Shown in pieces: positions 16,901 to 32,962 of a DNA stretch of 34,905 nt. This DNA is from a virus. Under the pieces are notes generated by a model, which did not search any database, had not been told where the DNA came from, and worked only from the letters and a program-made list of their open reading frames with translations. The stretch covers positions 1-34,905 of the IMG/VR virus record IMGVR_UViG_3300021964_000236, one strand, 5' to 3'. Position numbers and translations under genes: made by a program. Each line of letters begins with the position of its first letter. The stretch's first letter is position 1.

Positions 16901-17804
16901 TGATGGTGGTAATAATCGGGTAGGTTTATTTACAGCAACCCCCGACACGACGTTTGATGTCGAAGGTCAGGTCCGTTTCAATGAAACTACCTCAACGGCT
17001 GCTACCGTCATCGTCGGCGGTGCGCAAGACGGGCGACTAATTGACTTCCAGTCCGGTGGTTCTACTCGTTTCTATTTGTATGGCGGCGGTACTGGCGACG
17101 ACACTCTTGCATTTAAAGAGTCTAACGATAACTCAATGATTGCACTGTATGACACCGAAGGCGTAGTCATAAATGAAGACTCCACCACTCAAGACTTCCG
17201 CGTTGAGACCGACACTAACGCTAATGGGTTGGTTGTTGATGCTGGTAGTAACTTTGTTGCGTGTGGCATTAATGATCAGAATTGGACTGGTAGTTCGGGC
17301 GTTCGTTTCCATAATTTGGCGTCGGCAAACCAATACAACACCATGACCAATACAAGTAGCACCACTACAGATGAAGTGCTGATTATCCACAGGCAACAGC
17401 CGGTAACTGGAGGGGAGGCTATACAATTTTACCGCGCTAGCGTATCGGTCGGCTCCATCACTGTTTCGTCAGGTGCAACTGCGTATAACACTTCATCAGA
17501 CTATAGATTAAAAGAAAACGTAGTTGATTTAATAGGGGCAACAGACCTGTTAAAACAACTCAAACCGAAACGATTTAGTTTTATTGAAGACGGTTTAGAT
17601 AGTGCAGATACTGATGGCTTTTTAGCCCACGAAGTACAAACAGTAGTCCCTAAAGCTATTACTGGCGAAAAAGATGGAACCAAACTGGACAAAGAAGGCA
17701 ATATTGTTCCTCACTATCAAAGTATTGACCAAAGCAAAATCGTTCCTCTACTTGTAGCAACCATACAAGAACTAGAAGCCCGTATCACGGCACTAGAATC
17801 ATAA
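13944..17804 (+). CDS. Tail fibre/spike with C-terminal S74 self-cleaving chaperone
   Basis: A 1286-residue protein. Residues 1-60 (LKLALPVQGELSGTWGDVVN and onward) look like a virion-attachment domain. The long Thr/Gly/Ala-rich beta region includes TETLTNKTLTGPTISSPTLT. Five copies of a DFRVESD-type module begin at residues 472, 680, 850, 972 and 1084. The C-terminus is a Peptidase_S74-type intramolecular chaperone: the S1185-D1186-YRLKEN motif, then a helical bundle with FLAHEVQTVVPKAI and a final coiled-coil helix. In this family the chaperone trimerises the fibre and cuts itself off at that Ser-Asp. The remaining mature chain would be about 1185 residues. It probably contributes host recognition. 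Confidence 0.85.
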   Translation: MTTQYTSTLKLALPVQGELSGTWGDVVNDNITSMIEEAIVGRAVIDTWSSNSHVLTTADGTTAESRCAMLEFTDTGTNLTGAATVVCPTAAKIYIAKNASGQAATLKTSGGTGIAIPNGKTMLLFCDGTNVVEGATNIESLSVGGYTVSLAGNLTTAAAFTTAGANALTLTTTGATNVTLPTTGTLATLDGTETLTNKTLTGPTISSPTLTGSISATDLTISGNTTIGDAASDTLTVTSTITSNLIFTDNTYDIGASGATRPRNLFLSGNATVGGDIVLTGGIDVTGNFGVDGDFDVNTDKFTVASATGNTVVAGTLGVTGATTATGGLNVDTINEITATGGVTIDSVLLKDGDITGTIGANTASAGTFTTFTSTGIDDNATSTKFTVADTGISVAGDIFLTDASPAITFTDTSFVDLEHKINSSSDNLRLTVDLNDVDAGGRLEFFVGSATNQIRFGKTESSFNETSADIDFRVESDSNANMLFVDGGNNRVGVGTSSPQSIVHIDQGASGDAQLTLEAHAAGDSKLVFSQGQTAGNWAVGYDDGGGVTENSLSFAYKADGYPSLSGQNLMILTPDGNMGLGESNPEANLHIKNGSAGTFTASNSQLLIENNTTVRLTMVSPNGNGCTIEFGDVDDQDVGKINYDHSSNFFQITAGAQPNMAVIGYQGAVFNENSYDADFRVESDSNVNGLYLDGGGNFIAMGNNAKSLVSGYADQHGVGIDIQTGEVQISGDATPLQLGRTTTAGAEGDLLIFRTESNVRGGISNTSANDLRIRSGSSKLKLGESTDYVMIDTTASNARIELVDNSQSNPPTLIGNGPNFLIENGGVERVSIDGSGNIVFNESGADTDFRVESDTNTHALFVDGANGNVSFGTSNGIGGVQIQSSGSTSDITLYGSNTSNGGRIFFGDSSDRSSIQGGYDSGGGGYLKLFTDTAGGTNLERVYLDNEGGLSVTPTANGHAVFNNNGVDADFRVASDTNTHALFVDGGNNRVGLFTATPDTTFDVEGQVRFNETTSTAATVIVGGAQDGRLIDFQSGGSTRFYLYGGGTGDDTLAFKESNDNSMIALYDTEGVVINEDSTTQDFRVETDTNANGLVVDAGSNFVACGINDQNWTGSSGVRFHNLASANQYNTMTNTSSTTTDEVLIIHRQQPVTGGEAIQFYRASVSVGSITVSSGATAYNTSSDYRLKENVVDLIGATDLLKQLKPKRFSFIEDGLDSADTDGFLAHEVQTVVPKAITGEKDGTKLDKEGNIVPHYQSIDQSKIVPLLVATIQELEARITALES
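15357..17270 (+). repeat. Five dispersed DFRVESD modules in the tail fibre gene
   Basis: Copies start at 15357, 15981, 16491, 16857 and 17193, all in frame. All begin with the same 13 bases (gacttccgcgttg). Each encodes D-F-R-V-x-(S/T)-D followed by N and a (V/L)DG/DAG stretch. Copies 1 and 4 share a perfect 30-base identity (15392-15421 and 16892-16921), which indicates recent duplication or recombination. Confidence 0.85.
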
Positions 17805-17828
17805 ACTGTCATTAAAGGAGAAAGAAAC

Positions 17829-18179
17829 ATGGCAATTACAAATACATGGTCGATAAACGACATGCAAAGAACTGACGCAGATGGGGTTGTATTCCTCGTT
17901 TACTGGTCAATGGTAGCGGCAAGCGATGGCGATCCATCGTACACTGCTTCAGAAGGCGGAAAACTCCGCTGTGAAGGAGACCCCACGTCTCCAGACTTTA
18001 TTCCATACGCTGATCTAACAGAGAACGATGTTCTTGGTTGGGTATACGACAGCTTGATCGAAGGCGACGAAACCGCTGCCGAAGCTAAAGCTCGCGTAGA
18101 AGCAGATCGGGATGCAAAGGTGCAAAAGCAAATTGATGCGGCTGCAACAACTGAATCTGGTGTCCCTTGGGCATCTTAA
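17829..18179 (+). CDS. Conserved phage protein (116 aa), tail-associated
   Basis: A 116-residue acidic protein. It has a beta-predicted first half with WSINDMQRTDADGVVFLVYW and a second half with PYADLTENDVLGWVYDSLIE. It ends in an Ala/Glu-rich helix and the C-terminus GVPW. Proteins with this plan (tryptophan-containing beta half, then a LTE-x-x-VLGW helix and terminal PW) are frequent next to tail fibre genes in marine phages. They are annotated only as domains of unknown function (I recall DUF7936, not verified). It could be a fibre-assembly or tail accessory protein. Good RBS (aaaggagaaagaaac). Confidence 0.7.
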   Translation: MAITNTWSINDMQRTDADGVVFLVYWSMVAASDGDPSYTASEGGKLRCEGDPTSPDFIPYADLTENDVLGWVYDSLIEGDETAAEAKARVEADRDAKVQKQIDAAATTESGVPWAS

Positions 18180-18199
18180 CTTAAATAAGGAGACTTATA

Positions 18200-18418
18200 A
18201 TGGCGAAAAATGAAAAGAAAACCATTACTGTCAATGATGTAGAACACAACATTGAAGACCTAACCGAGCAACAAGTTGCGATGGTTAACCACATTGCTGA
18301 TCTGGATAAGAAGCTAGGAAGCCTACGCTTCAACATGGATCAGCTAAACGTAGGCCGCGAAGCATTTGTAAACATGCTATCGCAGTCTCTGGATGAACCT
18401 AAAGAAGTAAGTGAGTAA
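18200..18418 (+). CDS. Small conserved coiled-coil protein (72 aa)
   Basis: A 72-residue protein. ITVNDVEHNIEDLTEQQVAM is followed by a long helix with HIADLDKKLGSLRFNMDQLN and a short C-terminal helix. The pattern (short beta hairpin around a V-x-x-x-EH/Y, then LT/LS, then one long helix) matches a small phage family I recall as DUF6447, unverified. It lies upstream of the lysis genes with a good RBS (aaggagacttata). The function is unknown. Confidence 0.65.
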   Translation: MAKNEKKTITVNDVEHNIEDLTEQQVAMVNHIADLDKKLGSLRFNMDQLNVGREAFVNMLSQSLDEPKEVSE

Positions 18419-18426
18419 GATGTGTT

Positions 18427-18618
18427 ATGAGCCGTACCGTTCGAGATGCCCATCGTCGTATAGACGAAATAGAACCTAGAGTTACCAAGTTGGAAACCGA
18501 AGTGCATATCCAGTTTAAGGAAGTGTTCACTCGGATTAAGCGCTTGGAGGCCATCTTGATTGGTGCGGCTGGTACCATTATTGCTATGTTAATGGCTATT
18601 CTTACAAAAATGGGTTAG
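18427..18618 (+). CDS. XhlA-like small membrane protein, lysis-associated
   Basis: A 63-residue protein. An N-terminal amphipathic coiled coil (residues 5-40, RRIDEIEPRVTKLETEVHIQ and onward) is followed by one transmembrane segment at about 42-60 (AILIGAAGTIIAMLMAIL) and a two-residue basic tail. This is the plan of hemolysin XhlA-type proteins that accompany phage holins. Its place at the head of the lysis cassette supports that reading. It may act as a holin partner or membrane anchor for the lysis enzyme. Confidence 0.65.
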   Translation: MSRTVRDAHRRIDEIEPRVTKLETEVHIQFKEVFTRIKRLEAILIGAAGTIIAMLMAILTKMG

Positions 18619-18673
18619 AACCCGATTCCGCGCACCCGCGCTGCGACATTTCTAAGCTGACACAGGTGAGGAT

Positions 18674-19129
18674 ATGCTCGCAGAATTAGCCGCGTTCAAC
18701 GCGGGGTTTGCCGTAGTAAAACAATGTATCGCTAATGGGCGAGAATTAACCGATGCCATGAATGCCATCGGGCAGATGGTTGGTGCCAAAGAAGACCTAA
18801 AAAGGCGCGGCGAAAAGAAAAAGAAAAGCGTCCTATCCATGCTTGGGGGTAAGACGGGAAATGATTTCGAGGAGTTTATGGCTCTCGAAAAGATCAGAGA
18901 AACCGAAAAAGAACTCATCAGCATGATGCGCTTATACGGAAGGCCCGGATTGTACGACGATTGGGTCCGTTTCCAAGCTGAAGCGCGTAAGAAACGCAGA
19001 GAAGAAGAGCTAGCTCAAAAGAAGCAAAGAGCTAAAAACATAGAGTATTTTGCCATCTTTATTGCTGTTTCTATGGTTATAGGTGGTTTTGTATTGCTTA
19101 TGGTGTGGGTCAAATGGCTAGCTGGTTAA
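18674..19129 (+). CDS. Tail-anchored membrane protein, lysis region
   Basis: A 151-residue protein. The N-terminal helical domain contains AFNAGFAVVKQCIANGRELT. A basic linker (RRGEKKKKS) follows, then a helix with EFMALEKIRETEKELISMMR and the motif YGRPGLYDDWVRFQ. A highly charged helix (EARKKRREEELAQKKQRAKN) precedes one transmembrane segment at about 125-148, near the C-terminus. A good RBS (ggtgaggat) precedes the ATG. Similar proteins occur beside holin genes in marine phages. The orientation does not fit Rz-type spanins, which are N-terminally anchored. The function is unknown but a lysis or virion-membrane role is plausible. Confidence 0.65.
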   Translation: MLAELAAFNAGFAVVKQCIANGRELTDAMNAIGQMVGAKEDLKRRGEKKKKSVLSMLGGKTGNDFEEFMALEKIRETEKELISMMRLYGRPGLYDDWVRFQAEARKKRREEELAQKKQRAKNIEYFAIFIAVSMVIGGFVLLMVWVKWLAG

Positions 19130-19209
19130 GACGTCAACCTGTAAGTAATCTTTGCAAATCGTGCAATAATCTACTAAGGTGAGGTAGGTAGTATTGTGTG
19201 GAGGTTATA

Positions 19210-19581
19210 ATGCTACAGAATTTAATTGGCCCTGTTACGGGTTTGCTCGATAAATTTATCGAGGATAAAGATCAAAAAGCTAAGTTGGCCCATGAAATTG
19301 GGACAATGGCAGAGAAGCATGGGCAGGAGATAGCCCTTGCGCAAATTGCGCTGAACACCGCAGACGCAAAGGGTAACTTCTTTCAATCTTCTTGGAGGCC
19401 CTTATGTGGACATGTTTGCGTTCTTGGTTTAGCCGTAAATTTCTTAATATCCCCCATCGCAGCAGGATTTGGTGTGACCATTCCACAAGCCGACATGGGC
19501 GTGATGATGCCCGTTCTGATGGGTATGTTGGGTCTGGGCGGTCTCAGATCATTCGAGAAGATGAAAGGCGTAGCAAAATGA
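19210..19581 (+). CDS. Holin (3TM / gene-transfer-agent holin type)
   Basis: A 123-residue protein. A helical N-terminal half (residues 1-55) is followed by the SWRP motif at 61-64 and two clear hydrophobic segments at about 66-85 and 97-113. It ends with a basic tail. The order (amphipathic helix, WRP, then two membrane helices) is that of the Holin_3TMs family, which makes lesions that release or activate endolysin. The start is the ATG at 19210, with an ideal GGAGG five bases upstream; a GTG at 19198 would put the RBS inside the coding region. The stop overlaps the endolysin start as ATGA, giving translational coupling. Confidence 0.8.
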   Translation: MLQNLIGPVTGLLDKFIEDKDQKAKLAHEIGTMAEKHGQEIALAQIALNTADAKGNFFQSSWRPLCGHVCVLGLAVNFLISPIAAGFGVTIPQADMGVMMPVLMGMLGLGGLRSFEKMKGVAK

Positions 19582-20033
19582 GTTTTAAGTTATCACAACG
19601 TAGCCGAGATAGGCTCGAAGGCGTAGATGTCGGGCTAATCGCAGTCGTTGACTATGCTATTGCCGTCACAAAAGTCGATTTTGGTGTGATTTGTGGCCTC
19701 AGAACCATCGAAGAACAGCGAGAACTTGTCGCTAAAGGCGCAAGTAAAACCATGAAATCTAAGCATATTGATGGTCACGCTGTAGACCTTATGGCCTATA
19801 TTGGACCGAGAGGGTCGTGGGAATTGAATTTGTACGACGATCTTGCTAACGCTATGAAAGAGGGTGCTGAAGCCGCTGGAGTCGGCATCCGTTGGGGAGC
19901 CGCATGGCATATCCCAGACATTCGTGAGTGGGACGGTACAATGGAAGAAGCTATGAATGCGTACGTGGATTTACGCCGTAGCCAAGGTAAGCGTCCATTT
20001 ATTGATGGGCCACATTTCGAGTTGGCGGTATAA
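19578..20033 (+). CDS. Endolysin, M15/VanY-type L,D-peptidase
   Basis: A 151-residue cell-wall hydrolase of the L-alanyl-D-glutamate or D-Ala-D-Ala peptidase type (peptidase M15, T5 lysozyme group). It cuts peptide stems of peptidoglycan. The zinc-site motif S61-K-H63-I-D-G-H-A-V-D70 provides His and Asp ligands, and D143-G-P-H146 supplies the catalytic Asp and third ligand. FGVICGLRTIEEQRELVAKG is the family's typical N-terminal segment. No signal peptide or wall-binding domain is present, so export depends on the holin. The start is the ATG within the holin stop. Confidence 0.9.
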   Translation: MSFKLSQRSRDRLEGVDVGLIAVVDYAIAVTKVDFGVICGLRTIEEQRELVAKGASKTMKSKHIDGHAVDLMAYIGPRGSWELNLYDDLANAMKEGAEAAGVGIRWGAAWHIPDIREWDGTMEEAMNAYVDLRRSQGKRPFIDGPHFELAV

Positions 20034-20034
20034 T

Positions 20035-20244
20035 ATGAAGACCACAGTAGAAGCTAGAGATACTGGGGATGGTGTAGAGCCAAAGCACACAGTGCACGTT
20101 GTCTGCGCAAATTGCGGGTACGACCTTGATGAGGCCGAACTTGAAGCGGATACTTGTTCTGATTGCGGTGCGCCCTTAAACCTAGAACAACATGTAGCTA
20201 TCGAAGTTACTACGTTGCCCTCTATCTTTGGCGAAAGTATGTAG
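20035..20244 (+). CDS. Small zinc-ribbon protein (69 aa)
   Basis: A 69-residue acidic protein with C24-A-N-C27 and C41-S-D-C44, a compact rubredoxin-like zinc-ribbon spacing, in a segment CANCGYDLDEAELEADTC. The ATG at 20035 starts two bases after the endolysin stop; upstream in-frame starts lie within the endolysin gene. It is the second zinc-ribbon protein in this window, unrelated in sequence to the first. The function is unknown. Confidence 0.65.
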   Translation: MKTTVEARDTGDGVEPKHTVHVVCANCGYDLDEAELEADTCSDCGAPLNLEQHVAIEVTTLPSIFGESM

Positions 20245-20251
20245 GTGAGCT

Positions 20252-22120
20252 ATGGCCCTAAAGAAGTTAGTATTTCAGCCCGGTATCAATCGAGAAGTAA
20301 CACGTTACTCCAACGAAGCTGGTTGGTATGAGTGCGATAAAGTACGCTTCAGACAAGGGTTCCCCGAAAAGATTGGCGGGTGGCAACGTATATCAGGTAC
20401 AACATTCCTTGGTACGTGCCGCTCTCTCTGGAACTGGGTAACACTAGGCAGTATCAATCTTATTGGTGTAGGTACTCACCTCAAGTTTTACCTAGAGCAG
20501 GGTGGTGGGTATAACGACATCACGCCTATACGCGCTACCACCGCTGCTGGTGATGTGACATTTGCTGCTACAAATGGCTCTGCAACAATAACTGTTACCG
20601 ACGCAGGGCATGGTGCACGAGAGAATGATTTTGTTACCTTCAGTGGTGCGGTAACACTTGGCGGTAACATTACTGCTGGTGTGCTTAATCAAGAATACCA
20701 GATCGTTACCGTTCCTAGCGACAATACGTACACTATTACCGCGACTGCAACAGCTAACTCTTCGGACACAGGTAATGGCGGTTCTTCTGTAGTCGGGGCT
20801 TATCAAATACGTACTGGCGAGCCATACGAAGTCCCACTCTCTGGTTGGGGTGGCGGCACGTGGGGTGCAGGTGTATGGGGTACAGGTGGTATTTCCACTG
20901 AATCCATCCGTCTTTGGAGCCAGTCTAACTTCGGTGAAGACCTTATATTTGGTCCTCGCGGAGGTGATATTTTCTATTGGGACGCTACAAACGGCGTAAA
21001 CACGCGAGGTGTGTACTTAAACACGTTAGCAGGTGCTTCTGACGTACCAACCCAACAAAACGTCATAATCGTTTCTGACATCAATCGGTTTGTATTCTGT
21101 ATGGGTACGAACGATGTGGGTACTGCTACGGTAGACCCAATGCTTATCCGCTGGTCCGATCAGGAAGACCCTGCAAATTGGACACCAGCATCTACGAACC
21201 AAGCGGGGTCCTTGAGACTGTCACGGGGAACTGAGATAGTCGCGGCTAAACAAGCACGTCAAGAGGTCCTCGTTTGGACCAACTCTTCGCTGTATTCATT
21301 GCAGTATCAGGGCGCACCCGCTGTATGGGGTGCCCAGTTGGTCGGCGATAACATATCCATCGCATCTATGAACTCCGTTGCGTTTGCTAGCGGTATTGCG
21401 TTCTGGATGGGTAAAGATAAGTTCTATATGTATGATGGGCGCAGTCAGCCCCTCCCATGCAACGTACGTCGTTACGTATTTAACGACTTCAACGAGCTAC
21501 AGTACGACCAAGTATTTGCAGGTACAAACGAGGCATTTCACGAAGTTTGGTGGTTTTACTGCTCCGCAGGTAGCGAAACAGTCGATAAGTACGTGGTGTT
21601 TAACTACCTAGAACAGACGTGGTATTACGGAAATATGGCCCGTACAGCATGGCTGGACTCAGGTCTACGTGATTACCCACTGGCTGCAACATACAGCTAC
21701 AACCTCGTTAACCACGAGCAAGGCACTGATGACAACGAAACAGGCACTCCGGTGGCTATTACAGCGTCGATTACGTCAGGGCAGTTCGATATTGACGATG
21801 GAGATCGGTTTGCCTTTATCTGGCGAATCATGCCAGATGTAACCTTTGACGGGTCTACGGCGGCTAGCCCCGCTGCGACCATGACGCTGCTCCCCCTCGC
21901 AAACTCAGGGTCGGGGTATAACAACCCATACTCAGAAGGAGGCACCGCTGTAGGCACCGTCACCCGTACCGCTACCGTGCCTATTGAACAGTTTACAGGG
22001 CAGGTGAATACTCGTGTTCGTGGACGACAAATGTCGATTCAGATGGAGTCCACTGAGCTTGGAGTTAAGTGGCAACTTGGATCGCCTAGAGTAGATATGC
22101 GCCCTGACGGGAGGCGCTAA
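20252..22120 (+). CDS. Tail nozzle / stabilisation protein, beta-propeller-like (P22 gp10 or T7 gp12 type)
   Basis: A 622-residue protein. MALKKLVFQPGINREVTRYS, then AGWYECDKVRFRQGFPEKIG and GGW, is a highly characteristic opening of a marine podovirus tail protein. The body is beta-rich, with an inserted Ig-like segment (about residues 95-180) and a WG-rich motif at 198-212 (W199, W204, W209, each followed by G). Segments such as LIRWSDQEDPANWTPASTNQ and VLVWTNSSLYSLQYQGAPAV have the repeating-blade look of P22 gp10 and T7 gp12, which close the tail tube after packaging. The stop shares one base with the next start. The fold is inferred. Confidence 0.72.
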   Translation: MALKKLVFQPGINREVTRYSNEAGWYECDKVRFRQGFPEKIGGWQRISGTTFLGTCRSLWNWVTLGSINLIGVGTHLKFYLEQGGGYNDITPIRATTAAGDVTFAATNGSATITVTDAGHGARENDFVTFSGAVTLGGNITAGVLNQEYQIVTVPSDNTYTITATATANSSDTGNGGSSVVGAYQIRTGEPYEVPLSGWGGGTWGAGVWGTGGISTESIRLWSQSNFGEDLIFGPRGGDIFYWDATNGVNTRGVYLNTLAGASDVPTQQNVIIVSDINRFVFCMGTNDVGTATVDPMLIRWSDQEDPANWTPASTNQAGSLRLSRGTEIVAAKQARQEVLVWTNSSLYSLQYQGAPAVWGAQLVGDNISIASMNSVAFASGIAFWMGKDKFYMYDGRSQPLPCNVRRYVFNDFNELQYDQVFAGTNEAFHEVWWFYCSAGSETVDKYVVFNYLEQTWYYGNMARTAWLDSGLRDYPLAATYSYNLVNHEQGTDDNETGTPVAITASITSGQFDIDDGDRFAFIWRIMPDVTFDGSTAASPAATMTLLPLANSGSGYNNPYSEGGTAVGTVTRTATVPIEQFTGQVNTRVRGRQMSIQMESTELGVKWQLGSPRVDMRPDGRR

Positions 22121-22743
22121 TGGCTAATGAGATTGAGAGAGTAGAGCCGCCTGCTCTACCACTGGCCCCCGAAGACTACCAACGTCCATTTATGGACCAG
22201 AACAGCAACGTTTTGCGGTTGTTCTTTAATCGTCTGATAAACTCTCTCAACACGTTGCTCAGCACCGACGATGGTGGCAAGTTTCTATATATGCCACGGG
22301 GTCTCTTTTATAGCACCGTTGACCAAACAGCCGCTCTTGCAAACACGGGCTATCCCGTTGAGTTTGAGAACACCTATATTGGCAACGGTATTTCGATTGG
22401 TGGAACAGATAACACCCGCATTACTGCCACTGATGATGGCGTCTATAACTTCCAAGTGACTTTGCAGTTGGAGCACAACAACTCGTCAGCCGCTACATTA
22501 TGGACGTGGATTAACAAGAACGGTACTGACCAACCGTATGGTGGGCAGAAAAACACTATCAAAGGTAATGATGATATTGCCGTGCATTGGAACTTCTCGA
22601 TTGATCTAACAGCGGGCCAATACATTGAGATGTACTGGGCGACTGACGATACACAGCTTAACTTGCATACAGAAGCTGCTACAGCACCTCACCCGGGCAT
22701 ACCATCTACTGTCGTTGCGGTATCATTTGTTAGCAACTTATAG
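22120..22743 (+). CDS. Tail protein with C-terminal jelly-roll-like domain
   Basis: A 207-residue protein. A short N-terminal helical part (residues 15-50) has NVLRLFFNRLINSLNTLLS. A beta domain contains MPRGLFYSTVDQTAALANTG, DDGVYNFQVTLQLEHNNSSA and an ending GIPSTVVAVSFVSNL. The pattern resembles C1q/TNF-like jelly rolls on phage tails and fibres. The start overlaps the nozzle gene stop. A receptor-binding or nozzle-capping role is likely by position. The gene is followed by the only clear promoter-like gap in this half of the window. Confidence 0.65.
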   Translation: MANEIERVEPPALPLAPEDYQRPFMDQNSNVLRLFFNRLINSLNTLLSTDDGGKFLYMPRGLFYSTVDQTAALANTGYPVEFENTYIGNGISIGGTDNTRITATDDGVYNFQVTLQLEHNNSSAATLWTWINKNGTDQPYGGQKNTIKGNDDIAVHWNFSIDLTAGQYIEMYWATDDTQLNLHTEAATAPHPGIPSTVVAVSFVSNL

Positions 22744-22750
22744 TGTGTGA

Positions 22751-22778
22751 TTGTCTCCTGTACTCAAATATGTATACT
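22751..22778 (+). promoter_or_regulatory. Sigma70-like promoter before the ACP-ketosynthase genes
   Basis: TTGTCT (22751-22756) and TATACT (22773-22778) are separated by 16 bases. The -10 box matches five of six consensus positions and the -35 box four of six. Transcription would start near 22785, inside the palindrome AGGGTACCCT (22780-22789). The 62-base gap is one of few intergenic spaces here. An AGGAG Shine-Dalgarno lies six bases before the ATG at 22806. Confidence 0.55.
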
Positions 22779-22799
22779 GAGGGTACCCTATAACAGGAG
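22755..22799 (+). promoter_or_regulatory. Inverted repeat spanning promoter and Shine-Dalgarno
   Basis: CTCCTGT (22755-22761) is the exact reverse complement of ACAGGAG (22793-22799), which includes the ribosome-binding AGGAG. Nested within are CTCA (22763-22766) and TGAG (22778-22781), plus a perfect 10-base palindrome AGGGTACCCT (22780-22789). In DNA this could be an operator overlapping the promoter. In RNA transcribed from upstream it could sequester the ribosome site, whereas RNA started at the local promoter would lack the left arm. Confidence 0.45.
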
Positions 22800-22805
22800 C
22801 GAACC

Positions 22806-23117
22806 ATGAGTTTTGATTTCTTAGAATTGTTTAACGCTGTTGGCGCAGCGCAAAAAGTAGTCACTAACGACTTCATACCTGCCGAATCCCTTGAAGTAGC
22901 TATAACTGAAGACGTAACAAATCTTGACAGTTTAGATGTAACACTAACTTTTTTTGTACTTGCAGAGGCTTATGGCATCCCCGAAGACGAAGAACTCAAT
23001 GAACAGTGGCCTTACGAAAGTGTGCAGTTGTTGAAAGAGTTCATCGAAGAGCACAAAACAAAAGACCCAGAAGACGAGTTTGCCTCGATTAAAGCACTTG
23101 TGAAGGAGTTAGGATGA
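22806..23117 (+). CDS. Acyl carrier protein
   Basis: A 103-residue acidic protein. NLDSLDVTLTFFVLAEAYGI matches ACP helix II: S42 in D41-S42-L43-D44 is the 4'-phosphopantetheine attachment site, and LAEAYGIP aligns with the L-E-E-x-F-x-I region after it. VQLLKEFIEEH (about residues 73-83) corresponds to helix IV. The first helix is shorter than usual, and about 20 extra residues (KTKDPEDEFASIKALVKELG) extend the C-terminus. It would tether acyl chains as thioesters once modified by a phosphopantetheinyl transferase, presumably the host's because none is seen here. The stop overlaps the ketosynthase start as ATGA, so the two are likely partners. Confidence 0.85.
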   Translation: MSFDFLELFNAVGAAQKVVTNDFIPAESLEVAITEDVTNLDSLDVTLTFFVLAEAYGIPEDEELNEQWPYESVQLLKEFIEEHKTKDPEDEFASIKALVKELG

Positions 23118-24226
23118 TTTACATGACTCAGTGCCGTACAGCGTGCACAACCGATACTACTCTGATTGACGATATACCGTACCCCCAACATGCTCATATC
23201 TTGCCGAATACGTTTCGTAGAGCAAAGTCTGGGTTAAAGTACCCTCCACACGTGCTGATAGAAAGCCTCATTGATGACGAGTTGCGTAGCTATGTAGCTG
23301 ACAACCCCGTCAAAGGTAAGACTGGGTTTATCTTTGCCGCTGGTAATCAAGGCTGGATGGGCACCAACGGGCGGTATGACAAAAACCCTGATGCGCAACT
23401 GCATTACAAAGTAAAAGTACCGTTCATCGTGCTTACCAACATCTATGCAGGGCGTATCGCAAGTATGTTTGGCGTACACGACCATGTGTCAACAGATGCT
23501 AGTGCTTGCGCATCTAGCCTACATGTACTAATGAATATGCAGACGCTGATGGATAACTACGGGTTTGATCGTGTTATCGTGTTCAGTGGCGAGGATAGTG
23601 TAAACAACCTCGTACTTGAGTTTTTTGGCGAGGCAGGTGCAAGCCTGCAATACAAAGACGAAGGAGAGCGCCAGCCTTCTGCGTTCGATGACCACAACCA
23701 AGGGTTCCATATTGGACAAGGTGCCGTGGTCGCTATATTTGAAAAAGAGCACGCTGGTATGGCTGATCCAATGGCTAAATTCGTTGGCGCGTATAGCTCC
23801 GCAGAGGACAATACAAATCCTTTGGGGCAACGAGAAGACGGATCGGGCTTTAGTAAAGCTATCGAGGGTGCATTATTTGTAGCCAAAGCACATGAAAATG
23901 ATGTAAGGTTAGTTAAAACGCATGGAACTGGCACGCCAGTCAACAATGCTGCGGAAAAATCGGCACTTCTACGTTCCCTAAACGAGTTTGTGGCAACGTC
24001 TTACAAACCACGTATTGGGCACACAATGGGTGCTAGCGGACTATTGGAGACTGGTTTGTTGCTACGCGACTTACAGAAGGGCTTCGTGCCCAAAATCCTA
24101 AACCGGACACAGGAAGATTCTGTGTTCTTGTCCGATGACGCCCCCATTCCCGAGGGCCTAATGCTCAGCCTTGCCGCTGGCATGGGCAACATCTACTCGG
24201 CTGCGCTGTTCTCACGGGAGGTGTAA
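23114..24226 (+). CDS. Beta-ketoacyl-ACP synthase-like protein (KAS, thiolase fold)
   Basis: A 370-residue condensing-enzyme homologue (FabF/FabB type). The nucleophile is C132 in STDASACASSLHV. H270 lies in KTHGTGTPVNNAAE, and K298 and H303 in KPRIGHTMGASG with the expected five-residue spacing. The C-terminal glycine loop AAGMGNIYSAALF replaces the usual GFGGTN. All four catalytic positions are therefore present, so decarboxylating Claisen condensation of malonyl-ACP with an acyl chain is possible. It is about 40 residues shorter than standard KAS and lacks the opening strand signature (the V-x-TG-x-G-x-V-SP-x-G type). It is translationally coupled to the ACP. The in-frame M4 codon could also be the start. 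The substrate is unknown. Confidence 0.88.
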   Translation: MIYMTQCRTACTTDTTLIDDIPYPQHAHILPNTFRRAKSGLKYPPHVLIESLIDDELRSYVADNPVKGKTGFIFAAGNQGWMGTNGRYDKNPDAQLHYKVKVPFIVLTNIYAGRIASMFGVHDHVSTDASACASSLHVLMNMQTLMDNYGFDRVIVFSGEDSVNNLVLEFFGEAGASLQYKDEGERQPSAFDDHNQGFHIGQGAVVAIFEKEHAGMADPMAKFVGAYSSAEDNTNPLGQREDGSGFSKAIEGALFVAKAHENDVRLVKTHGTGTPVNNAAEKSALLRSLNEFVATSYKPRIGHTMGASGLLETGLLLRDLQKGFVPKILNRTQEDSVFLSDDAPIPEGLMLSLAAGMGNIYSAALFSREV

Positions 24227-24227
24227 G

Positions 24228-24698
24228 ATGGAAATCGTAAACAGCAAGGAGAAATTGCTAAAAGGGCCTGAAATTGTTGCTATGTCCGCATACAACATGC
24301 CAGACCTAAAGTATCCAAAGGAAGTTGTGTTGGGTGCAGTTGCCGCAGAGTTCACTCTACCACGTACTGATCTCGTGCAGATCGGTAATACTGTTTTTGT
24401 TGGTCATATGGGTAAGGGCAAAAAGAACAGTAAGAAGATGGTGGGGAGGGCGTTTAACGTAGATACAGGTAGGAACTTCATTGTCAACGGGTTCAAATAC
24501 TTTACGTACCTGCAAAAAATGGGCATCACGCACTATACCACAGAGTTCTATGGGCCTGTATTTCTAAATGGCTTTAAGCTGTTTAAGCGCCGCGCAGACC
24601 AACAGGATACTGAGATTGCGATTGGTAAGTACCGAAACACCGACAAATATGTCGTGTTTATGAAGCTAGGCAAAGAGCCATTGATGCGAGGGTTGTAG
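24228..24698 (+). CDS. Unknown protein, possible GNAT-type acyltransferase
   Basis: A 156-residue alpha/beta protein. A predicted hairpin VVLGAVAAEF and LVQIGNTVFVGHM is followed by a glycine/basic loop GKGKKNSKKMVGRAF, a helix RNFIVNGFKYFTYLQKMG, a strand ITHYTTEFY, a helix FLNGFKLFKRR, and terminal strands with KYVVFMKLG. That order recalls the acyl-CoA pyrophosphate loop and flanking elements of GNAT acyltransferases, but the loop is not a canonical Q/R-x-x-G-x-G/A and no catalytic residue is obvious. GGGAGG lies six bases before the ATG, one base after the ketosynthase stop. It may use the ACP-bound acyl chain or be an unrelated internal virion protein. GNAT assignment is weak inference. 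Confidence 0.65.
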   Translation: MEIVNSKEKLLKGPEIVAMSAYNMPDLKYPKEVVLGAVAAEFTLPRTDLVQIGNTVFVGHMGKGKKNSKKMVGRAFNVDTGRNFIVNGFKYFTYLQKMGITHYTTEFYGPVFLNGFKLFKRRADQQDTEIAIGKYRNTDKYVVFMKLGKEPLMRGL

Positions 24699-24699
24699 A

Positions 24700-27600
24700 T
24701 TGAGCTTTATCGTTGACGCCGTTAAGGATGTAATTGATTGGGTCGCTGGTGCCATTGAAGACGTTGTTGATTTTGTCTTTGATGAGATCGTCGAACCTGT
24801 CGTTTCGTTCGTTGGCGACACTGTTCAGGCTCTATTAGACAATCCCCTCGAAACAATAGCAAAAGTCGTAGCCGTGGCGACGGGTAACGCATGGGCTATA
24901 CCGCTAATCGACGGAGCTTCCGTAGCTGTTAACGGTGGAGACCTTGGTGACGTTCTTGAAACCGTTGCTGTGTCCTACGTTTCGCAAGCGATTGGTGGTG
25001 AAATTGCTCAGCACACCGCTCCATTTGTTGATGATGTTATCGGCGAATCTCTCAGCGCAGGTCTGAAAGAGGTTGCTGTCGCATCTATAACGCAAGGTAC
25101 GGTTGCCGCTACAACCGCCATACTTTACGGCGAAGACCCACTGGAAGCGTTTGCCCGAGGAGGACTCACCGCTGCGGTTTCCGCAGGTATGGGTCAGATT
25201 GCAGAGCAAATAGGTTTTGAAGTCGAGGTTACTGACCCTGCTACAGGTCAAACGACTACTCGCCCCATCCCAAATGTCGTTAAAAACGTCATCAGCGCGG
25301 CTCTTGCCGCTGAATTGACTGGCGGTGAAGTGAATGGCGAGCTTTTAGCTAACGCCGTCACACGTGGTTTGATTACCACTGACCTTGTTAAGAAGTATAT
25401 CGGCGATAATCCTAGCATTGGAGACCGAGAACTCACGTATATGACCGCTGCGTTCCAACGTACAGCGGCTGTAGCACTGTCCGGTGGCACTGGAGAACAA
25501 GCGGCAGCACAAATCATGGGCGTTATCTCTGCCTATGGTATGGAAGAACTGCACGATGAGATTCGTGACTCAGGTGTTGGGGACTTTATCGGCGATACAC
25601 TCGATAGAATATCGGGGGACTACCAGCGCGTAGAGGAATTAACCGCGTTGATGGACGAAATAGGTCCAAGGCTCTCTGAAAATTACGCCGAATACGAAGA
25701 AAAGTACAACGCACTGCAAGCATTGTGGAACACCATCACGGGTAATCGTGAACAGATTATGATGCTGCAAGCCGATGCAGCGGAGCCGGGGCTGGACCCC
25801 AACAATATATTTGCACGACAAATTGAAAGATTAGAAGCTGAGCTTGAAACAGCCGTCGTAGAATACAACCGCCTGATTGAAGAAGAAGGCTACCTCGACC
25901 GAATTAACGAACTTGTACCCCTAATCGAGGCTGATAACGAAGCGTTGCAAGGGTACCAAGACGACCTAATCGAAGCACAGAATGATCTACAACGTACTGC
26001 CGACCGCTTAGACGGTGAGCTAACGTCTGTATACAGCGCAACAGATGAGTACCTAGTCAGTGCTATGGACCCCGGCTTTAACGCTGAGGAGTACAGAGCA
26101 CTTAACAACTTACCAGATGATGTAGATGCCTACGCACACTTCTTATCCGAAGGGCAGCATAGCGGGGCGTACACTAGCTGGAACCAATACGATATTGCGC
26201 TGGATAACGCACGTGATCTTGCAATGAATGAGATCATGTTTGGCGGGTTTGGTATAGCTGAAAACTCCGCAGTGTGGAACCTTTCTGATGCTGATCGACA
26301 AGCACTACAAGCCATATTGAGGGAGAACGGATACGATTCACCTCAAGCCCTTAATGAGCTTCTTACAGCGCCGGGCGAGGTCCGAGAAGCTGTGTTTAAC
26401 CAATGGGTTGAAGCTATTGGATCAAGTCAAACTCGTATTGTTAGTACGGGTGACGCACTTACTCAAAACCAAATAGACCTACTAGCTGAACAAGGCTACG
26501 ACATGCGAGGCGTAGCGGTGGGAACCGAAATGACTGCTGAAGAGGCTGTCGCCTTAGATGCGATCCTTAGAAGTTCTGATGCCGCCGCTAACATTGAACT
26601 TTCCGAAGGCGTAACCGCTGAAGACGTTATTAGTGGCAACGCTGTTCTTGGAACGAATGAGGATGGCGCTTTAACTTGGCGAATTATACCGGGCGAAACT
26701 CGTTGGGACCCTGAATATGGCTGGGTAACTCGTCGCTCGACGGTTAACGAAGCTGGGCAGGAAATGAGTTGGCGGTATTACGACCAAGATGGTAATCCAG
26801 TCGGCCCTCCCGGTCTGGTCATTTATGGCGGCATTACGGATGTTGACGACAACGAACAAATAGGACTGGCATTAAACGCCGCTAACGCTGGCATGTCGTG
26901 GGATAGCATCCAAGAAAACCTTGGGTGGAGCGACACATTAATTAACGCCGCTCAGAACGTCATGGACTGGGTGTCTGAAGGTGACTCATCAATGGCGCAG
27001 AACTTCCTTGCCAACGCTATGAAAGCTGGCGGCGGTATTCTCGAAGCGTTTAACGGCATGTCTACCTTGTTTGGTATCGCACCAGACAGCACAGCACTTG
27101 GTAAGTTTGCACAACAACTGCAAGATATTGGTGTCGCAGGGAACACTGAAGAATACAAAGCGGAGCTTGCAAAACTGCAAGAAATGATGACCGCTGAAAC
27201 TGATCTCCCAGAAGATGCGGCGTGGTACGAAAGAGCGTTTGCTAGGGTCGCTACGATTGCTGGCGCAGCCGCTGAGCACCCCAGTGCGTTTATCTCTGAA
27301 TACATTGGCGTTGAAGCCATGCAGGAGCTTGTACCTCTTGCGGTAGGTGGTGTTGCCACACTGGGTGCGAAAGGCGCGGCAATGGCTATGGGCCGTACGC
27401 TGTCCACTCGTATGGCGGCTGGCACAGGTCTAAGTGCCGCAGCAGTCACAGACATCGCCGAAAGCTATGGTGGCACAGCGGGGGAGACATACGACCGCGC
27501 ACTGACAGTCGCCTTAGATTCGATTAACCCCGCCACAGGGCAAGTTTACACGCAGAGCGAAGCTGAAGAATACGCTATGACACTCGCCGTTCAGACGGGT

Positions 27601-30600
27601 GCAGTAGCCGCAACAATGACCGCCGCTACAATGGGTATCGGTGGCATGGCGTTGGAGAAAGCTCTGCTTGGTGACAAAGCCGCAACTGGGTTTGTCGGGG
27701 CAGGTATAGACGAACTTGCTAGCCGTATCGCTAATGGCGGTACGATCATGATTAAAGAGGGCCTTACTGAGGGTCTCGAAGAAGGTCTTGCTACTGCGTT
27801 TCGTGAAGGGCATTTATCACAAATTAACCCTGATATTGACGTAGCCGACGAAGTTGCAGGTGCGGCCTTCATGGGCTTTATTGTCGGTGGCCCAGTTTCT
27901 GGTGGCGCATACGGTGTCAGTCAAGTTGGTGACGCCTATTCTAACTTTATCTCCGCGATTGACCCTGATGTGCGGTCAGCTATCGAGAACGGCAACACTG
28001 TAGCTGCTAACAATGCACTGGATGATCTTGGTGTTACCGATCCAGTCGTACGTAATAACGTACTCAGTCAGGTTGCACCCGACCAGTTTGTAAACACAGC
28101 ACAAGCTACCACGTCGTTCCTTAACGCAAACCCTGACTACACTGCAACAGAAGCAGAGATTAACTCGTTTGTACAAGCAGGTAGTTACACTGACATTAAC
28201 GAGCAGATCGACCGTTATGTGGACGACCGCTACGTCGATACGCAAGAAGTCATTGATGCCGCCGCTGAACAGGGCGTAACGCTAACTGAAGAAGAAGCGC
28301 AAGAATATGTAGGTCAAGGCCCTGCGGGACACGAAGACGCTGTACTAGAGCAGTTAGGACTACAGCTTGGGCCGGGGTATACGAGCGCAGGCGAAGCCCG
28401 TGCCATGTTCGAGGCTCTGGGATACACACCCACAGATGCAGAAGTAGCGGCCTACGTAGGTGAAGTAGAGGAAGATGTACAAGAAGCGGCTATCGCCGAA
28501 TACGTTGATCCACGTCAAGTTACTGCCGCAGAAGCAGAGGCTTTGTTTGCAGAGCAGAACTTTGATCCATCCGCCGACGATATAGCGGCGTTTGTAGGCC
28601 AAGGCGGTGCGAATTTTGAGGCAAACACTAACGTAGCACCGTATGTTGATCCACGTCAGGTTACAGCAGACGAAGCTAGATCGATATTTACAGATTTAGG
28701 CTACGAACCGTCCGACTCGCAAGTACAGTCGGCTGTTGGGCAGGGTGATGCAAACCACGAGACCGCTGTAGCTGAAGATATTGCACCGTATGTGGACGCA
28801 CGGCTTGTTACTGAAGACGAAGCCCGTGCCATGTTTGAAGCACAAGGCTACTCACCTAGCGATGCAGAGATTGCCGAATACGTTGGGCAGAGCACTCGCG
28901 GCAATTTCCAGCGTAATACTAACGCCAGTATTGATACCTTTGCCGACCCACGAGCTACTACAGAAGCTGAAGTTCGTGCGATGTTTGAAGCAGAGGGCTA
29001 CACACCTACCGATGCAGAGGTTACTGCACGTACGGGCCAAGGCGACCAAGACTTTGAGTCGTCCACAGGTAGTGACGTTACAGGTTACGTAGACCCACGA
29101 CAGGTCACAGAAGCTGAAGCACGTCAATTCTTTGCAGACCAAGGCTACACGCCAACTGATGAAGAAGTACAAGCCTATATAGGTCAAGGCGGTAACAGAT
29201 TTGAGACTAGGCAAGACAATGCAGTCGGTACTTATGTAGACCCACGTCAGGTTACAGCAGACGAAGCTAGAGAGTTGTTTAGCAACCTTGGCTACGAAGC
29301 TACAGACGATGAGATTGCGTCGTTTACAGGTCAGGGCGATGCCAACTTTGAAGCTAACATAGGCGTTGATACTTACGTAGACCCACGCCAAATGAACGCG
29401 GAAGAAGCGCGTGCGGCTCTTGTTGCTCAAGGCATTACTGATCCAACCGATGACCAGATTGCTGGCCTTATGGGTCAGGGTGATGAAGACTTTGAGACTA
29501 CACAGCAAGAATACGCTGTTGAGTACGCCGATCCGTTTGTTACTACATACGAAGAAGCACGGCAGTTCTTCAACGACCTCGGGTTCACACCCACAAAAGA
29601 AGAAATTGAAGCCTACGTCGGTGCAATATCGGAAGAAGAGCAACAGGCGGCTATCGCGGCGTTTGTTGACCCACGCTACACCGATGCAGATGAGGCACGT
29701 GAGTTCCTAACTGCACTTGGTTACGACCCATCCGACCAAGAAGTTGCACGGTTTACGGGTCAGGTACGCGAAGAGCAACAGCAAGAAGCTATTGCAGAGT
29801 ATGTTGATCCACGGCTTGTCGATGCGGATGAGGTACGAGCAGCGTACGAAGCTCTGGGCTTGCAGCAGCCAACTGACGAAGACATCCAAGAACTTGTCGG
29901 TCAGTACATGGAGTCTGAGCTAGAGGGACGCGCAGAAGAATACCTGCCAACCGCACGTTACAACTCCATAATGAACATCCTTAACAACTTTACAGGTGTT
30001 GGAGGACTGTCTGAAGAAGAACAAGCGGCTCTTGATCTTGTTAAACAAGACATTATCAACGCTATGGGCGATCTTGGCCTTGAAGTGGCGGCGATTGATC
30101 AAGCCGTGGGCAACCTCACTGACGCTGTTGGTTCGGTAGCAAGTGGTGATGAGGACGCTACTGGGTTATATGGCTACATTGACCAAGCGATTGAAGACCT
30201 CAAAGCCGCAGGGCTTACCAACGAAGAAGTTGAAGCGACGATTGCCGAGATTGTTGGTTCGCCAGCCACTGATGATGCAGATGCCACAGGTATTTACGCT
30301 ACTTTGGATGCTCTTGGCACGTCCATTGATGAACTTAACGATATTAGTATAGATGACGTAAATGACATTGTTGCGGATGCGATTGGTAATTTAGAAAATA
30401 TCAGTGAAGACGATGTTAATGATATTGTTGCTGACATTGTAGGCACTCCTGCAACTGACGACGCACCAGCTACTGGACTCTATGCCACCGTTGGTGATCT
30501 AAACGATATTAGTGTTGAAGAAGTCACCGCCATAGTAAATGAGGCTATTGGCGGTCTTGAAAACATTAGTGAAGACGACGTAGCGGACGTTGTAAACGGC

Positions 30601-32154
30601 ATTATTGGGGCACCTGCAACAGATGACACAGATGCGTCAGGTATCTACGGGTATATCGACAATACTACAGATGAGATTCTTGACGTTCTTGGCAACCCCG
30701 CAACAGATGATACTGAGGCTACGGGTCTTTATGACTATATCGACACGGCGGTCGATACACTTGGCACTGACCTAGCCACACTTGCAGGAAATGTTGGTAC
30801 CCCTGCCGAATATGATGCTGACGGCAACGTAGTAACCGAAGCAACTGGTATCTACGCACAAGTCCAAGACCTAATGGATCAGGGTCTGACAAACGCAGAA
30901 GCTATCGCACAGCTTGCCGTGGACTTTGGTGTTGCGGTAACTGACCTCACTAACCTTATCAATGCGCAGACTGACACCATTACTGAAGATGTCGGTGCAG
31001 TCGCAGAAGATGTAAGTGACATTGAGGGACTTCTCGGTAGTCCAGCTATTGCTGATAACCCGTTAACAGAAGAAGACGAATCAGCGGACCCCACCGGGCT
31101 GTTTGGTACTATTGCTCAGTACGAAGCATCGGGTAAAGAACGTGATGAAGCTATCTCGGATGCACTAGATGACCTTGCCACTCAGCTAGGTACAACTAAA
31201 GACGACATCCTTGAGCAGATGGGGCTTGGTCTAACACAGCTAGAAACGGCTGTGGCGAACAGTCAGACTGCGCTTGAAGAGAAGATAGACAAAGCTGTTG
31301 AGGACATCGGTGTCGATCTCGGTGATATGGAGACCGAGATTCTTGAGAAGATGGCTGAGTACGAGGCAGACGGTATTGACCGTGATGATGCACTCGCACA
31401 GGCTATTTCTGACGTGTCAGACCAACTTGGTCAGACCGAAACAGATATATTAGACGCACTAACTGAAACCGAAACTGATATACTGACAGAACTCGGCACT
31501 ACTGAGGCCGATATACTAGCTGCATTAGGTGAGACCGAAGCTACGCTAGCGTCAGATATTGAGGCGGTCAGTGATCTTGTAGGTAAGCCTGCAACTGAGG
31601 TTACGCAGACTGACATCGACTTTGTTGTGGATGTTATCGCTGGTAATCAGGTCATGGCTGAGAATCAGCTTGCTCAGTACGATGTGACTGGTGATCAGCA
31701 GATCACAATAGATGACCAAATATTACTAGAGCAACTGCTCGCTGGTGAGAACGTATTCGACCAAGTTGCTGATACATCTATCTACGCACCGACTGGTGTT
31801 TATGGCACCGTGCAGGATACAGAGACTGCATTGTCTGGTCAGATGGATCAAAACCAGCAACAAACGATGGATCAAATCCAACAAATGGAGCAAAACATCG
31901 TTACTAATATTGAGCAAGAAGCGCTACGTGCAGGTGGGAGACAGTTCCTACAGGCAGCGTTGCAAGCCCCTGATGCTATGGGGCAACAAGTTACCGTCAG
32001 AACACCCGATCCGTTAAATTTACGCTACATTTACGACTTTAACAGCATATTTGCTAATCCTCAGCAAGCAGGAATGTTTCCTAGTCCGTATGCAAAGGGT
32101 GGACAAGTAGAGGACACAACTGATAAGTTGTTAAATATAATTGGAGGCTCTTAA
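24700..32154 (+). CDS. Giant internal/ejection-type virion protein (2484 aa)
   Basis: The largest gene here. It starts with TTG one base after the previous stop, with GAGGG seven bases upstream. Domains: hydrophobic/amphipathic N-terminus (1-180; VDAVKDVIDWVAGAIEDVVD and onward); helical coiled-coil region about 312-445; hydrophobic Gly/Ala-rich stretches near 867-1073 (e.g. AFMGFIVGGPVSGG), which could contact membranes; about twelve 46-50 residue repeats at 1174-1750; a second repeat family around GxPATDDxxATGxY at about 1852-2142; coiled-coil segments; a dockerin/EF-hand-like loop D2328-VTGDQQITIDD; and a C-terminal AKGGQVED motif. Size, helicity and position after tail genes resemble T7 gp16-like or other ejected internal proteins that form the DNA conduit. 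No transglycosylase or polymerase motif was found. Confidence 0.75.
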   Translation: MSFIVDAVKDVIDWVAGAIEDVVDFVFDEIVEPVVSFVGDTVQALLDNPLETIAKVVAVATGNAWAIPLIDGASVAVNGGDLGDVLETVAVSYVSQAIGGEIAQHTAPFVDDVIGESLSAGLKEVAVASITQGTVAATTAILYGEDPLEAFARGGLTAAVSAGMGQIAEQIGFEVEVTDPATGQTTTRPIPNVVKNVISAALAAELTGGEVNGELLANAVTRGLITTDLVKKYIGDNPSIGDRELTYMTAAFQRTAAVALSGGTGEQAAAQIMGVISAYGMEELHDEIRDSGVGDFIGDTLDRISGDYQRVEELTALMDEIGPRLSENYAEYEEKYNALQALWNTITGNREQIMMLQADAAEPGLDPNNIFARQIERLEAELETAVVEYNRLIEEEGYLDRINELVPLIEADNEALQGYQDDLIEAQNDLQRTADRLDGELTSVYSATDEYLVSAMDPGFNAEEYRALNNLPDDVDAYAHFLSEGQHSGAYTSWNQYDIALDNARDLAMNEIMFGGFGIAENSAVWNLSDADRQALQAILRENGYDSPQALNELLTAPGEVREAVFNQWVEAIGSSQTRIVSTGDALTQNQIDLLAEQGYDMRGVAVGTEMTAEEAVALDAILRSSDAAANIELSEGVTAEDVISGNAVLGTNEDGALTWRIIPGETRWDPEYGWVTRRSTVNEAGQEMSWRYYDQDGNPVGPPGLVIYGGITDVDDNEQIGLALNAANAGMSWDSIQENLGWSDTLINAAQNVMDWVSEGDSSMAQNFLANAMKAGGGILEAFNGMSTLFGIAPDSTALGKFAQQLQDIGVAGNTEEYKAELAKLQEMMTAETDLPEDAAWYERAFARVATIAGAAAEHPSAFISEYIGVEAMQELVPLAVGGVATLGAKGAAMAMGRTLSTRMAAGTGLSAAAVTDIAESYGGTAGETYDRALTVALDSINPATGQVYTQSEAEEYAMTLAVQTGAVAATMTAATMGIGGMALEKALLGDKAATGFVGAGIDELASRIANGGTIMIKEGLTEGLEEGLATAFREGHLSQINPDIDVADEVAGAAFMGFIVGGPVSGGAYGVSQVGDAYSNFISAIDPDVRSAIENGNTVAANNALDDLGVTDPVVRNNVLSQVAPDQFVNTAQATTSFLNANPDYTATEAEINSFVQAGSYTDINEQIDRYVDDRYVDTQEVIDAAAEQGVTLTEEEAQEYVGQGPAGHEDAVLEQLGLQLGPGYTSAGEARAMFEALGYTPTDAEVAAYVGEVEEDVQEAAIAEYVDPRQVTAAEAEALFAEQNFDPSADDIAAFVGQGGANFEANTNVAPYVDPRQVTADEARSIFTDLGYEPSDSQVQSAVGQGDANHETAVAEDIAPYVDARLVTEDEARAMFEAQGYSPSDAEIAEYVGQSTRGNFQRNTNASIDTFADPRATTEAEVRAMFEAEGYTPTDAEVTARTGQGDQDFESSTGSDVTGYVDPRQVTEAEARQFFADQGYTPTDEEVQAYIGQGGNRFETRQDNAVGTYVDPRQVTADEARELFSNLGYEATDDEIASFTGQGDANFEANIGVDTYVDPRQMNAEEARAALVAQGITDPTDDQIAGLMGQGDEDFETTQQEYAVEYADPFVTTYEEARQFFNDLGFTPTKEEIEAYVGAISEEEQQAAIAAFVDPRYTDADEAREFLTALGYDPSDQEVARFTGQVREEQQQEAIAEYVDPRLVDADEVRAAYEALGLQQPTDEDIQELVGQYMESELEGRAEEYLPTARYNSIMNILNNFTGVGGLSEEEQAALDLVKQDIINAMGDLGLEVAAIDQAVGNLTDAVGSVASGDEDATGLYGYIDQAIEDLKAAGLTNEEVEATIAEIVGSPATDDADATGIYATLDALGTSIDELNDISIDDVNDIVADAIGNLENISEDDVNDIVADIVGTPATDDAPATGLYATVGDLNDISVEEVTAIVNEAIGGLENISEDDVADVVNGIIGAPATDDTDASGIYGYIDNTTDEILDVLGNPATDDTEATGLYDYIDTAVDTLGTDLATLAGNVGTPAEYDADGNVVTEATGIYAQVQDLMDQGLTNAEAIAQLAVDFGVAVTDLTNLINAQTDTITEDVGAVAEDVSDIEGLLGSPAIADNPLTEEDESADPTGLFGTIAQYEASGKERDEAISDALDDLATQLGTTKDDILEQMGLGLTQLETAVANSQTALEEKIDKAVEDIGVDLGDMETEILEKMAEYEADGIDRDDALAQAISDVSDQLGQTETDILDALTETETDILTELGTTEADILAALGETEATLASDIEAVSDLVGKPATEVTQTDIDFVVDVIAGNQVMAENQLAQYDVTGDQQITIDDQILLEQLLAGENVFDQVADTSIYAPTGVYGTVQDTETALSGQMDQNQQQTMDQIQQMEQNIVTNIEQEALRAGGRQFLQAALQAPDAMGQQVTVRTPDPLNLRYIYDFNSIFANPQQAGMFPSPYAKGGQVEDTTDKLLNIIGGS
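28219..29949 (+). repeat. About twelve tandem 46-50 residue repeats in the giant protein
   Basis: Units begin (V/A)DPR or close variants followed by (Q/L)VT-(A/E)-(D/E)EAR, an aromatic, L/Q-GY, (T/S/P)-PTD-x-E(V/I), and (Y/F)VGQG, then a variable spacer ending in Y or F. Each probably forms a helix-turn-helix pair. The best units lie between about 28500 and 29500; the outer ones (28219 and after 29520) are more divergent. Units are longer than 130 bases and only partly alike at DNA level. Confidence 0.85.
30253..31125 (+). repeat. Second repeat family in the giant protein (PATDD/ATGxY)
   Basis: At least six units with a V/L/I-G-x-PA core followed by acidic residues and A(T/S)G-(I/L)-Y occur at about 30253, 30439, 30607, 30691, 30793 and 31036. 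They are interleaved with repeated NDIS, DDVNDIVAD and ENIS helical linkers. Spacing is irregular, so these are probably spokes of a coiled-coil fibre. Similar elements occur again near 31580 and 31790. Confidence 0.7.
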
Positions 32155-32954: not shown

Positions 32955-32962
32955 GGTGAGAC

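Follow-up and report, generated by a model that had tools for sequence, protein, structure and literature searches.

Fatty-acid genes have been reported from several phages: roseobacter prophages carry fabG-acpP-fabF (PMC8224337), pelagimyophages carry fabF (PMC7029224), an Alteromonas phage carries an acyl carrier protein (ACP) (PMC11705849), and phage ACPs of unclear function are on record (PMC5463345). Such genes are usually taken as borrowed host metabolism, and the earlier fab copies were read as host-like metabolic genes. In this study, we analyzed a viral DNA of 34,905 nucleotides (IMG/VR record IMGVR_UViG_3300021964_000236; "the window" denotes this whole stretch) in which a gene for an ACP is followed by one for a ketoacyl-ACP synthase (KAS). 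The pair resembles the described cases in that ACP and KAS are both known phage cargo, and differs from them in setting and ancestry: whereas in the roseobacter prophages fabG is retained and the genes follow the E. coli order, this locus has no fabG and holds a fixed place in a block of ejection genes, and its KAS belongs to a divergent, virus-only family. In the literature searched, neither this KAS family nor an ACP-KAS pair within an ejection-gene block had been described; phage fab genes and phage ACPs were already known, and what is new is the pair, with its virus-only KAS, at the ejection genes.

Two other systems are close to the genes that follow the pair. The gene order is 10-26-14-7-20-16 in P22 and 12-13-14-15-16 in T7, with a small protein ahead of the ejection proteins in both, and comparison with these orders places ACP-KAS after the needle region and before the gene-14/13 position. 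The third gene of our locus resembles those of T7 gp13 (PF11090) and P22 gp14 (PF11039) in encoding a small protein directly before the ejection-protein genes, but neither T7 nor P22 has an ACP or a KAS at that place. Acetyltransferases are annotated at the equivalent place in roseobacter phage CRP-902 and in MW202675. The other comparison is with the RtxC enzymes, which have a GNAT fold without CoA elements and use acyl-ACP as substrate (PMC8339906). Like RtxC and HlyC, the small phage protein has a GNAT fold without CoA elements and is encoded next to a large protein (PMC8339906); unlike them, it has no invariant catalytic His and persists in phages without an ACP.

Identity of the proteins at the locus

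The window is phage DNA, with terminase, portal, capsid, adaptor and tail fibre genes upstream of the ACP-KAS block. The features of the block and its surroundings are as follows.

20252..22120, + strand: P22 gp10-like stabilisation/virion structural protein (phrog_3287, E 3.8e-68); upstream syntenic marker
22120..22743, + strand: 207-aa tail/needle-region protein (phrog_737 minor tail protein, E 1.2e-5)
22751..22778, + strand: promoter-like site TTGTCT-16-TATACT upstream of the ACP gene; putative function
22785..22802, + strand: leader with ribosome-binding site, ACCCTATAACAGGAGCGA; unique in the window, kept in relatives
22806..23117, + strand: acyl carrier protein, 103 aa; DSL at 41-43, S42 the predicted phosphopantetheine site
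23114..24226, + strand: FabF-type ketoacyl-ACP synthase, 370 aa; shortened N-terminus; C132/H270/K298/H303
24228..24698, + strand: GNAT-fold protein, 156 aa; without canonical CoA P-loop; core virion-locus gene
24700..32154, + strand: giant protein, 2484 aa, TTG start; putative ejection protein, from its position

The first-pass annotation had placed an ACP, a KAS and a small protein of possible GNAT layout here, joined by an ATGA overlap (ACP/KAS) and a 1-base gap (KAS/GNAT); the three reading frames and both junctions are as it described. Homologues of the protein at 20252-22120 carry the annotation "stabilisation protein". The gene at 22120..22743 varies among relatives, with other small genes in its stead in two of them (L034 and L038).

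Elsewhere in the window, a GroES-like co-chaperonin is encoded at 4926-5369, between the portal and capsid genes (Cpn10, 1.7e-7; phrog_3188, 1.9e-11), and one is annotated in MW202545 too. Four consecutive small Lys/Gly-rich ORFs with KKGGxVK motifs lie in the head-gene region (9017-10383), a 324-aa protein without family match that consists mostly of PTGVxATGAVGTVxxxADANV-type repeats is encoded at 12959-13933, and a small ORF adjoining the endolysin gene (19957-20244) has a zinc-ribbon-like C-terminal part (CxxC...CxxC). In the giant protein, a unit like VDPRQVTADEARxxFxxxGYxPTDxEVxxYVGQG recurs many times in diverged form at about residues 1150-1700. A DNA repeat search found no tandem repeats in the virion genes, though repeats are visible in the proteins.

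A profile search of the three proteins, proposed with the first-pass annotation, was productive in part: it recognized the KAS through Pfam and the ACP through a profile of its family, but the window ACP alone had no match in Pfam, and no sequence family was found for the GNAT-fold protein, even using 46 relatives. The ACP family profile matched 26 PDB chains, every one an ACP (E from 0.005), and aligned with E. coli AcpP (hhalign E 4.4e-6) with DSL on DSL; the Pfam PP-binding family was matched by two of nine family members. D41, S42 and L43 are invariant in all 70 distinct relatives, dN/dS against the window is roughly 0.04-0.17, and the window protein has a net charge of -18. By profile and motif, the ORF at 22806-23117 is an acyl carrier protein, and S42 is its predicted phosphopantetheine site, as the first-pass annotation had it.

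The KAS matches Ketoacyl-synt_C (1.6e-16) and ketoacyl-synt (1.5e-10) in Pfam, both above cut-off, and all matches in PDB sequence and fold searches are of KAS/FabF type, including a Foldseek match of its moderately confident AlphaFold2 model (pLDDT 68.7) to FabF with E 3.9e-18. C132, H270, K298 and H303, the residues singled out at first pass, align with C163, H303, K335 and H340 of E. coli FabF and are invariant in 77/77 distinct relatives. The protein shares with E. coli FabF (KAS II) the fold, the Cys-His-His-Lys set and HGTGTP-like and GHTMGASG-like motifs. It differs in being only 29% identical over 244 residues, in its coupling by ATGA to an ACP gene of its own, and in two fixed features: about 30 residues are absent near the N-terminus, and the C-terminal GFGG, the gatekeeper loop of elongating KAS enzymes, is replaced by GMGN (77/77). 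Its chemistry may differ from that of FabF because of the shortened N-terminus and the GMGN loop. Against the NCBIfam FabF model it scores 2e-31 and 109 bits, below the curated equivalog cut-off of 494. Fold, profile and catalytic residues thus place it in the FabB/FabF-type class, whereas the FabF score and the loop do not, and we conclude from its sequence that the protein at 23114-24226 is a KAS, but not FabF itself.

Identity to cellular KAS proteins, compared across 118 genomes from the phylum to which the Balneolaceae bin belongs, is 23-32%. Of 84,980 species genomes, a single one contained a close relative, which lay on a phage-like contig of a Balneolaceae bin; no close chromosomal relative was found. 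As judged by these comparisons, the phage KAS is a deep, separate, virus-only family, distant from all cellular KAS proteins that were compared. PHROGs contains a related family annotated as of unknown function (phrog_35856, 7e-37), and the C-terminal half of the KAS also matches the cispentacin enzyme AmcF (6e-23).

The third protein has a confident AlphaFold2 model (pLDDT 92.7) with helices and strands in GNAT order, whose nine best PDB fold matches (E <1e-3, TM about 0.5) are all GNATs; on this model it has a GNAT fold, which bears out the layout suspected at first pass. A fold search of viral proteins gave weak matches to internal virion protein A and to a DUF2824 protein. No sequence kinship was found with T7 gp13 or P22 gp14 (hhalign probability 0.3 and 0.1 percent), nor with the CRP-902 GNAT. 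The CoA P-loop (Q/R-x-x-G-x-G/A at strand 4/helix 3) is absent from 79 of 82 sequences; the other three carry the motif at positions 67 and 105, as single or paired sequences. RtxC enzymes have an invariant His, the catalytic His23 in HlyC. No His is invariant in the phage alignment, H60 coming closest with 72/82, and membership in the HlyC/RtxC family was rejected since the catalytic His is missing.

Conservation and loss of the pair, and its probable promoter

Pattern scans recovered the KAS family from 420 viral contigs and the GNAT family from 313; the 80 best of each family were retained. The carriers are bacterial viruses that have not been cultured, for the most part marine, and they form a large group. 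The retrieved records include 103 distinct contigs with a near-full KAS; the ACP gene lies directly upstream in every one, joined to KAS by the ATGA overlap in 102, and GNAT lies downstream wherever the contig extends. The order is unchanged in the two most distant carriers, the circular record MW202545 (KAS 54%, GNAT 31% over the aligned part) and the Balneolaceae-bin contig (KAS 52%); the latter is a weak host clue, being one phage-like contig. In MW202545 the gene after GNAT (L042:21545-23464) encodes 639 aa, much shorter than the giant protein and unusually cysteine-rich, with an N-terminus of the same kind as that of the giant protein. ACP-KAS always adjoins ejection genes and never a metabolic gene region, so that the location within virion genes remarked on at first pass proves to be conserved across deep divergence. 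The dN/dS of KAS against the window is 0.03-0.05, below that of ACP, which indicates that the pair is functional and old; together with a gene order kept in more than 100 contigs, it excludes a chance origin. Exchange does happen within the KAS gene: L033:3326-4865 is an apparent recombinant whose first half is near-identical to the window, while its second half and its GNAT (42%) come from another lineage.

The first-pass annotation had treated the three genes as one cassette, and here the survey of relatives divides the claim. ACP accompanies KAS in 103/103 contigs, but GNAT also occurs without the pair, which goes part of the way to the lack of co-occurrence named at first pass as a refutation, and we reject the three-gene cassette. 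In 25 contigs of one clade, GNAT lies directly before the giant gene without ACP or KAS, a few bases past a gene of 106-114 aa; one of these contigs (L128) has little upstream sequence. KAS was not found elsewhere in six KAS-less records, which are fragments of 11 to 36 kb. The giant gene directly follows GNAT in KAS-bearing and KAS-less relatives alike. Since the 25 related contigs carry GNAT without ACP or KAS, we place GNAT outside the pair, as a core gene of the virion locus. In the GNAT tree, which has a midpoint root and moderate support, the KAS-less rows group together as a single clade (99/94), which lies within KAS-bearing rows (94/68), and both distant KAS carriers fall outside. Because of this nesting, a single loss is the simplest reading: ACP-KAS would be ancestral on this tree, with one clade having lost it.

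KAS alone has also been deleted in three contigs (L101, L088 and L089), which retain ACP and GNAT, with ACP open; a KAS remnant of 25 residues is left in L101 (by sequence in L088 too) and one of 43 residues in L089. L101 and L088 share their remnant, and their ACPs have a dN/dS of 0.145 (few sites, one pair), so the ACP appears constrained after KAS loss, which would mean that it has a partner besides the phage KAS.

The GNAT proteins of the two kinds of phage have the invariant residues S6, N54, T55, D79, T80 and N83 in common. F116 is invariant in KAS-bearing phages and altered in the KAS-less clade (one position, one clade). Net charge is +11 in the window and -8 to +13 among KAS-bearing phages; its mean is 5.3 with KAS versus 0.2 without, with overlapping ranges in clades that are not independent.

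TTGTCT-16-TATACT ends 27 bases ahead of the ACP start and is the sole exact match in the window. The looser pattern TTGNNN-N15-18-TATNNT occurs in 38 of 67 distinct upstream regions versus 1.2 expected from shuffles, the relatives not being independent of one another, and positions 17000-34905 overall hold fewer promoter-like sites than shuffles. The leader occurs once in the window versus 0.04 expected. The site is probably a promoter for ACP, KAS, GNAT and the giant gene.

Possible roles of the pair

Beside KAS and ACP, type II fatty-acid synthesis needs AcpS, FabD, FabG, FabZ and FabI. We found no phosphopantetheinyl transferase (ACPS match) in ten phage records, three of them of 62-65 kb, and no FabD, FabG, FabZ/FabA or FabI among 25 listed of 31 families in a 65-kb relative, in line with the absence of partner enzymes noted at first pass; a complete type II synthase was thus not found. 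Because no such phage genes were found, the pair would have to borrow AcpS, FabD, FabG, FabZ and FabI from the host.

Our first choice, held tentatively and at somewhat less than even confidence, is a two-gene acyl-elongation module that uses host enzymes late in infection, with host envelope lipid as the favored destination of its product. Host AcpS would load phosphopantetheine onto S42 of the ACP, malonyl groups would come from host FabD, and the phage KAS would condense malonyl-ACP with a host acyl chain, C132 carrying the acyl group and H270/H303 with K298 serving decarboxylation; host FabG, FabZ and FabI would complete the cycle. Expression of the module would be late, with the ejection genes, from the conserved promoter-like site before ACP, and its product would enter host envelope lipid, so that the acyl make-up shifts late in infection. 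GNAT would have a separate virion role, as T7 gp13 and P22 gp14 do, for which the pair is not needed. We favor such an accessory effect on host lipid because the pair is dispensable and GNAT is independent of it. Counting against this reading are the location, always beside ejection genes, the ACP that stays constrained after KAS loss, the roughly 30 missing N-terminal residues, the GMGN loop and a KAS model whose pLDDT is only 68.7.

In the strongest alternative, the product of ACP and KAS is a special acyl chain that GNAT moves from acyl-ACP to the giant ejection protein, aiding its insertion into the membrane. HlyC acylates HlyA, and by this analogy the giant protein is a candidate acyl acceptor. 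We consider acylation of the virion unlikely, although we keep it in view because the pair has a fixed place and probably shares a promoter with GNAT and the giant gene, because ACP is retained where KAS is lost, and because GNAT lacks the P-loop. The order ACP-KAS-GNAT-giant is fixed in more than 100 contigs, with the promoter-like site preceding all four genes, and where KAS has been lost and ACP remains under selection, GNAT is still there. A GNAT fold without the CoA P-loop is what has been reported for the acyl-ACP-using RtxC enzymes (PMC8339906), but the invariant His of RtxC is missing. The opposite charges of ACP (-18) and GNAT (+11) in the window would suit a contact between them, but the GNAT charge is variable among KAS-bearing phages; F116 follows the presence of KAS, but a GNAT with the same invariant residues occurs in the 25 contigs without ACP or KAS. 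Finally, the proteins that occupy this position in T7 and P22 carry annotations as scaffold or head-morphogenesis proteins, T7 gp13 being a probable scaffold according to Pfam. A fuller version, in which a chain lengthened on the phage ACP is passed by the P-loop-less GNAT to the giant ejection protein and pair-less relatives use host acyl-ACP instead, is in our judgment a little less likely again. A literature search for lipidated phage virion proteins returned nothing relevant.

The divergence of the KAS raises another alternative, that of a dedicated product outside the membrane (a signal, an acyl-amino acid or a cofactor precursor) made via a host enzyme or an unrecognised phage one. A deep family at 23-32% identity to its cellular matches, with an AmcF-like C-terminal half, an altered GMGN loop and a shortened N-terminus, would suit such a product, but ordinary elongating KAS enzymes have the same Cys-His-His and Lys set, and the 65-kb relative has no other biosynthetic enzyme among 25 listed of 31 families; we regard this as improbable. 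It is more doubtful still, to the point of being very improbable, that ACP and KAS have ceased to be enzymes and serve virion assembly as structural or chaperone components: their setting among virion genes and the retention of ACP after KAS loss agree with such a role, but the four catalytic residues and the phosphopantetheine Ser are invariant down to 52-55% identity in KAS and ~30% in ACP, and binding alone would not demand invariant catalytic residues. That the triad is a bacterial fragment or an assembly error, for which nothing speaks but the oddness of the gene content, is refuted by the conserved synteny, since more than 100 independent contigs, the circular MW202545 and the phage-like contig of the Balneolaceae bin share the arrangement and the genome collection holds no close chromosomal relative.

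Although phage fatty-acid genes are commonly seen as host metabolism on loan, this pair departs from that picture: it brings its own ACP, occurs in hundreds of metagenomic contigs and has been kept beside ejection genes over deep divergence. Phages that have naturally lost KAS alone, or both genes, are ready comparisons for the role of the pair. Should its product reach the virion, this would amount to lipid modification of the phage ejection apparatus, and a lipidated DNA-injection machine would mean a step of virion maturation that depends on fatty acids.
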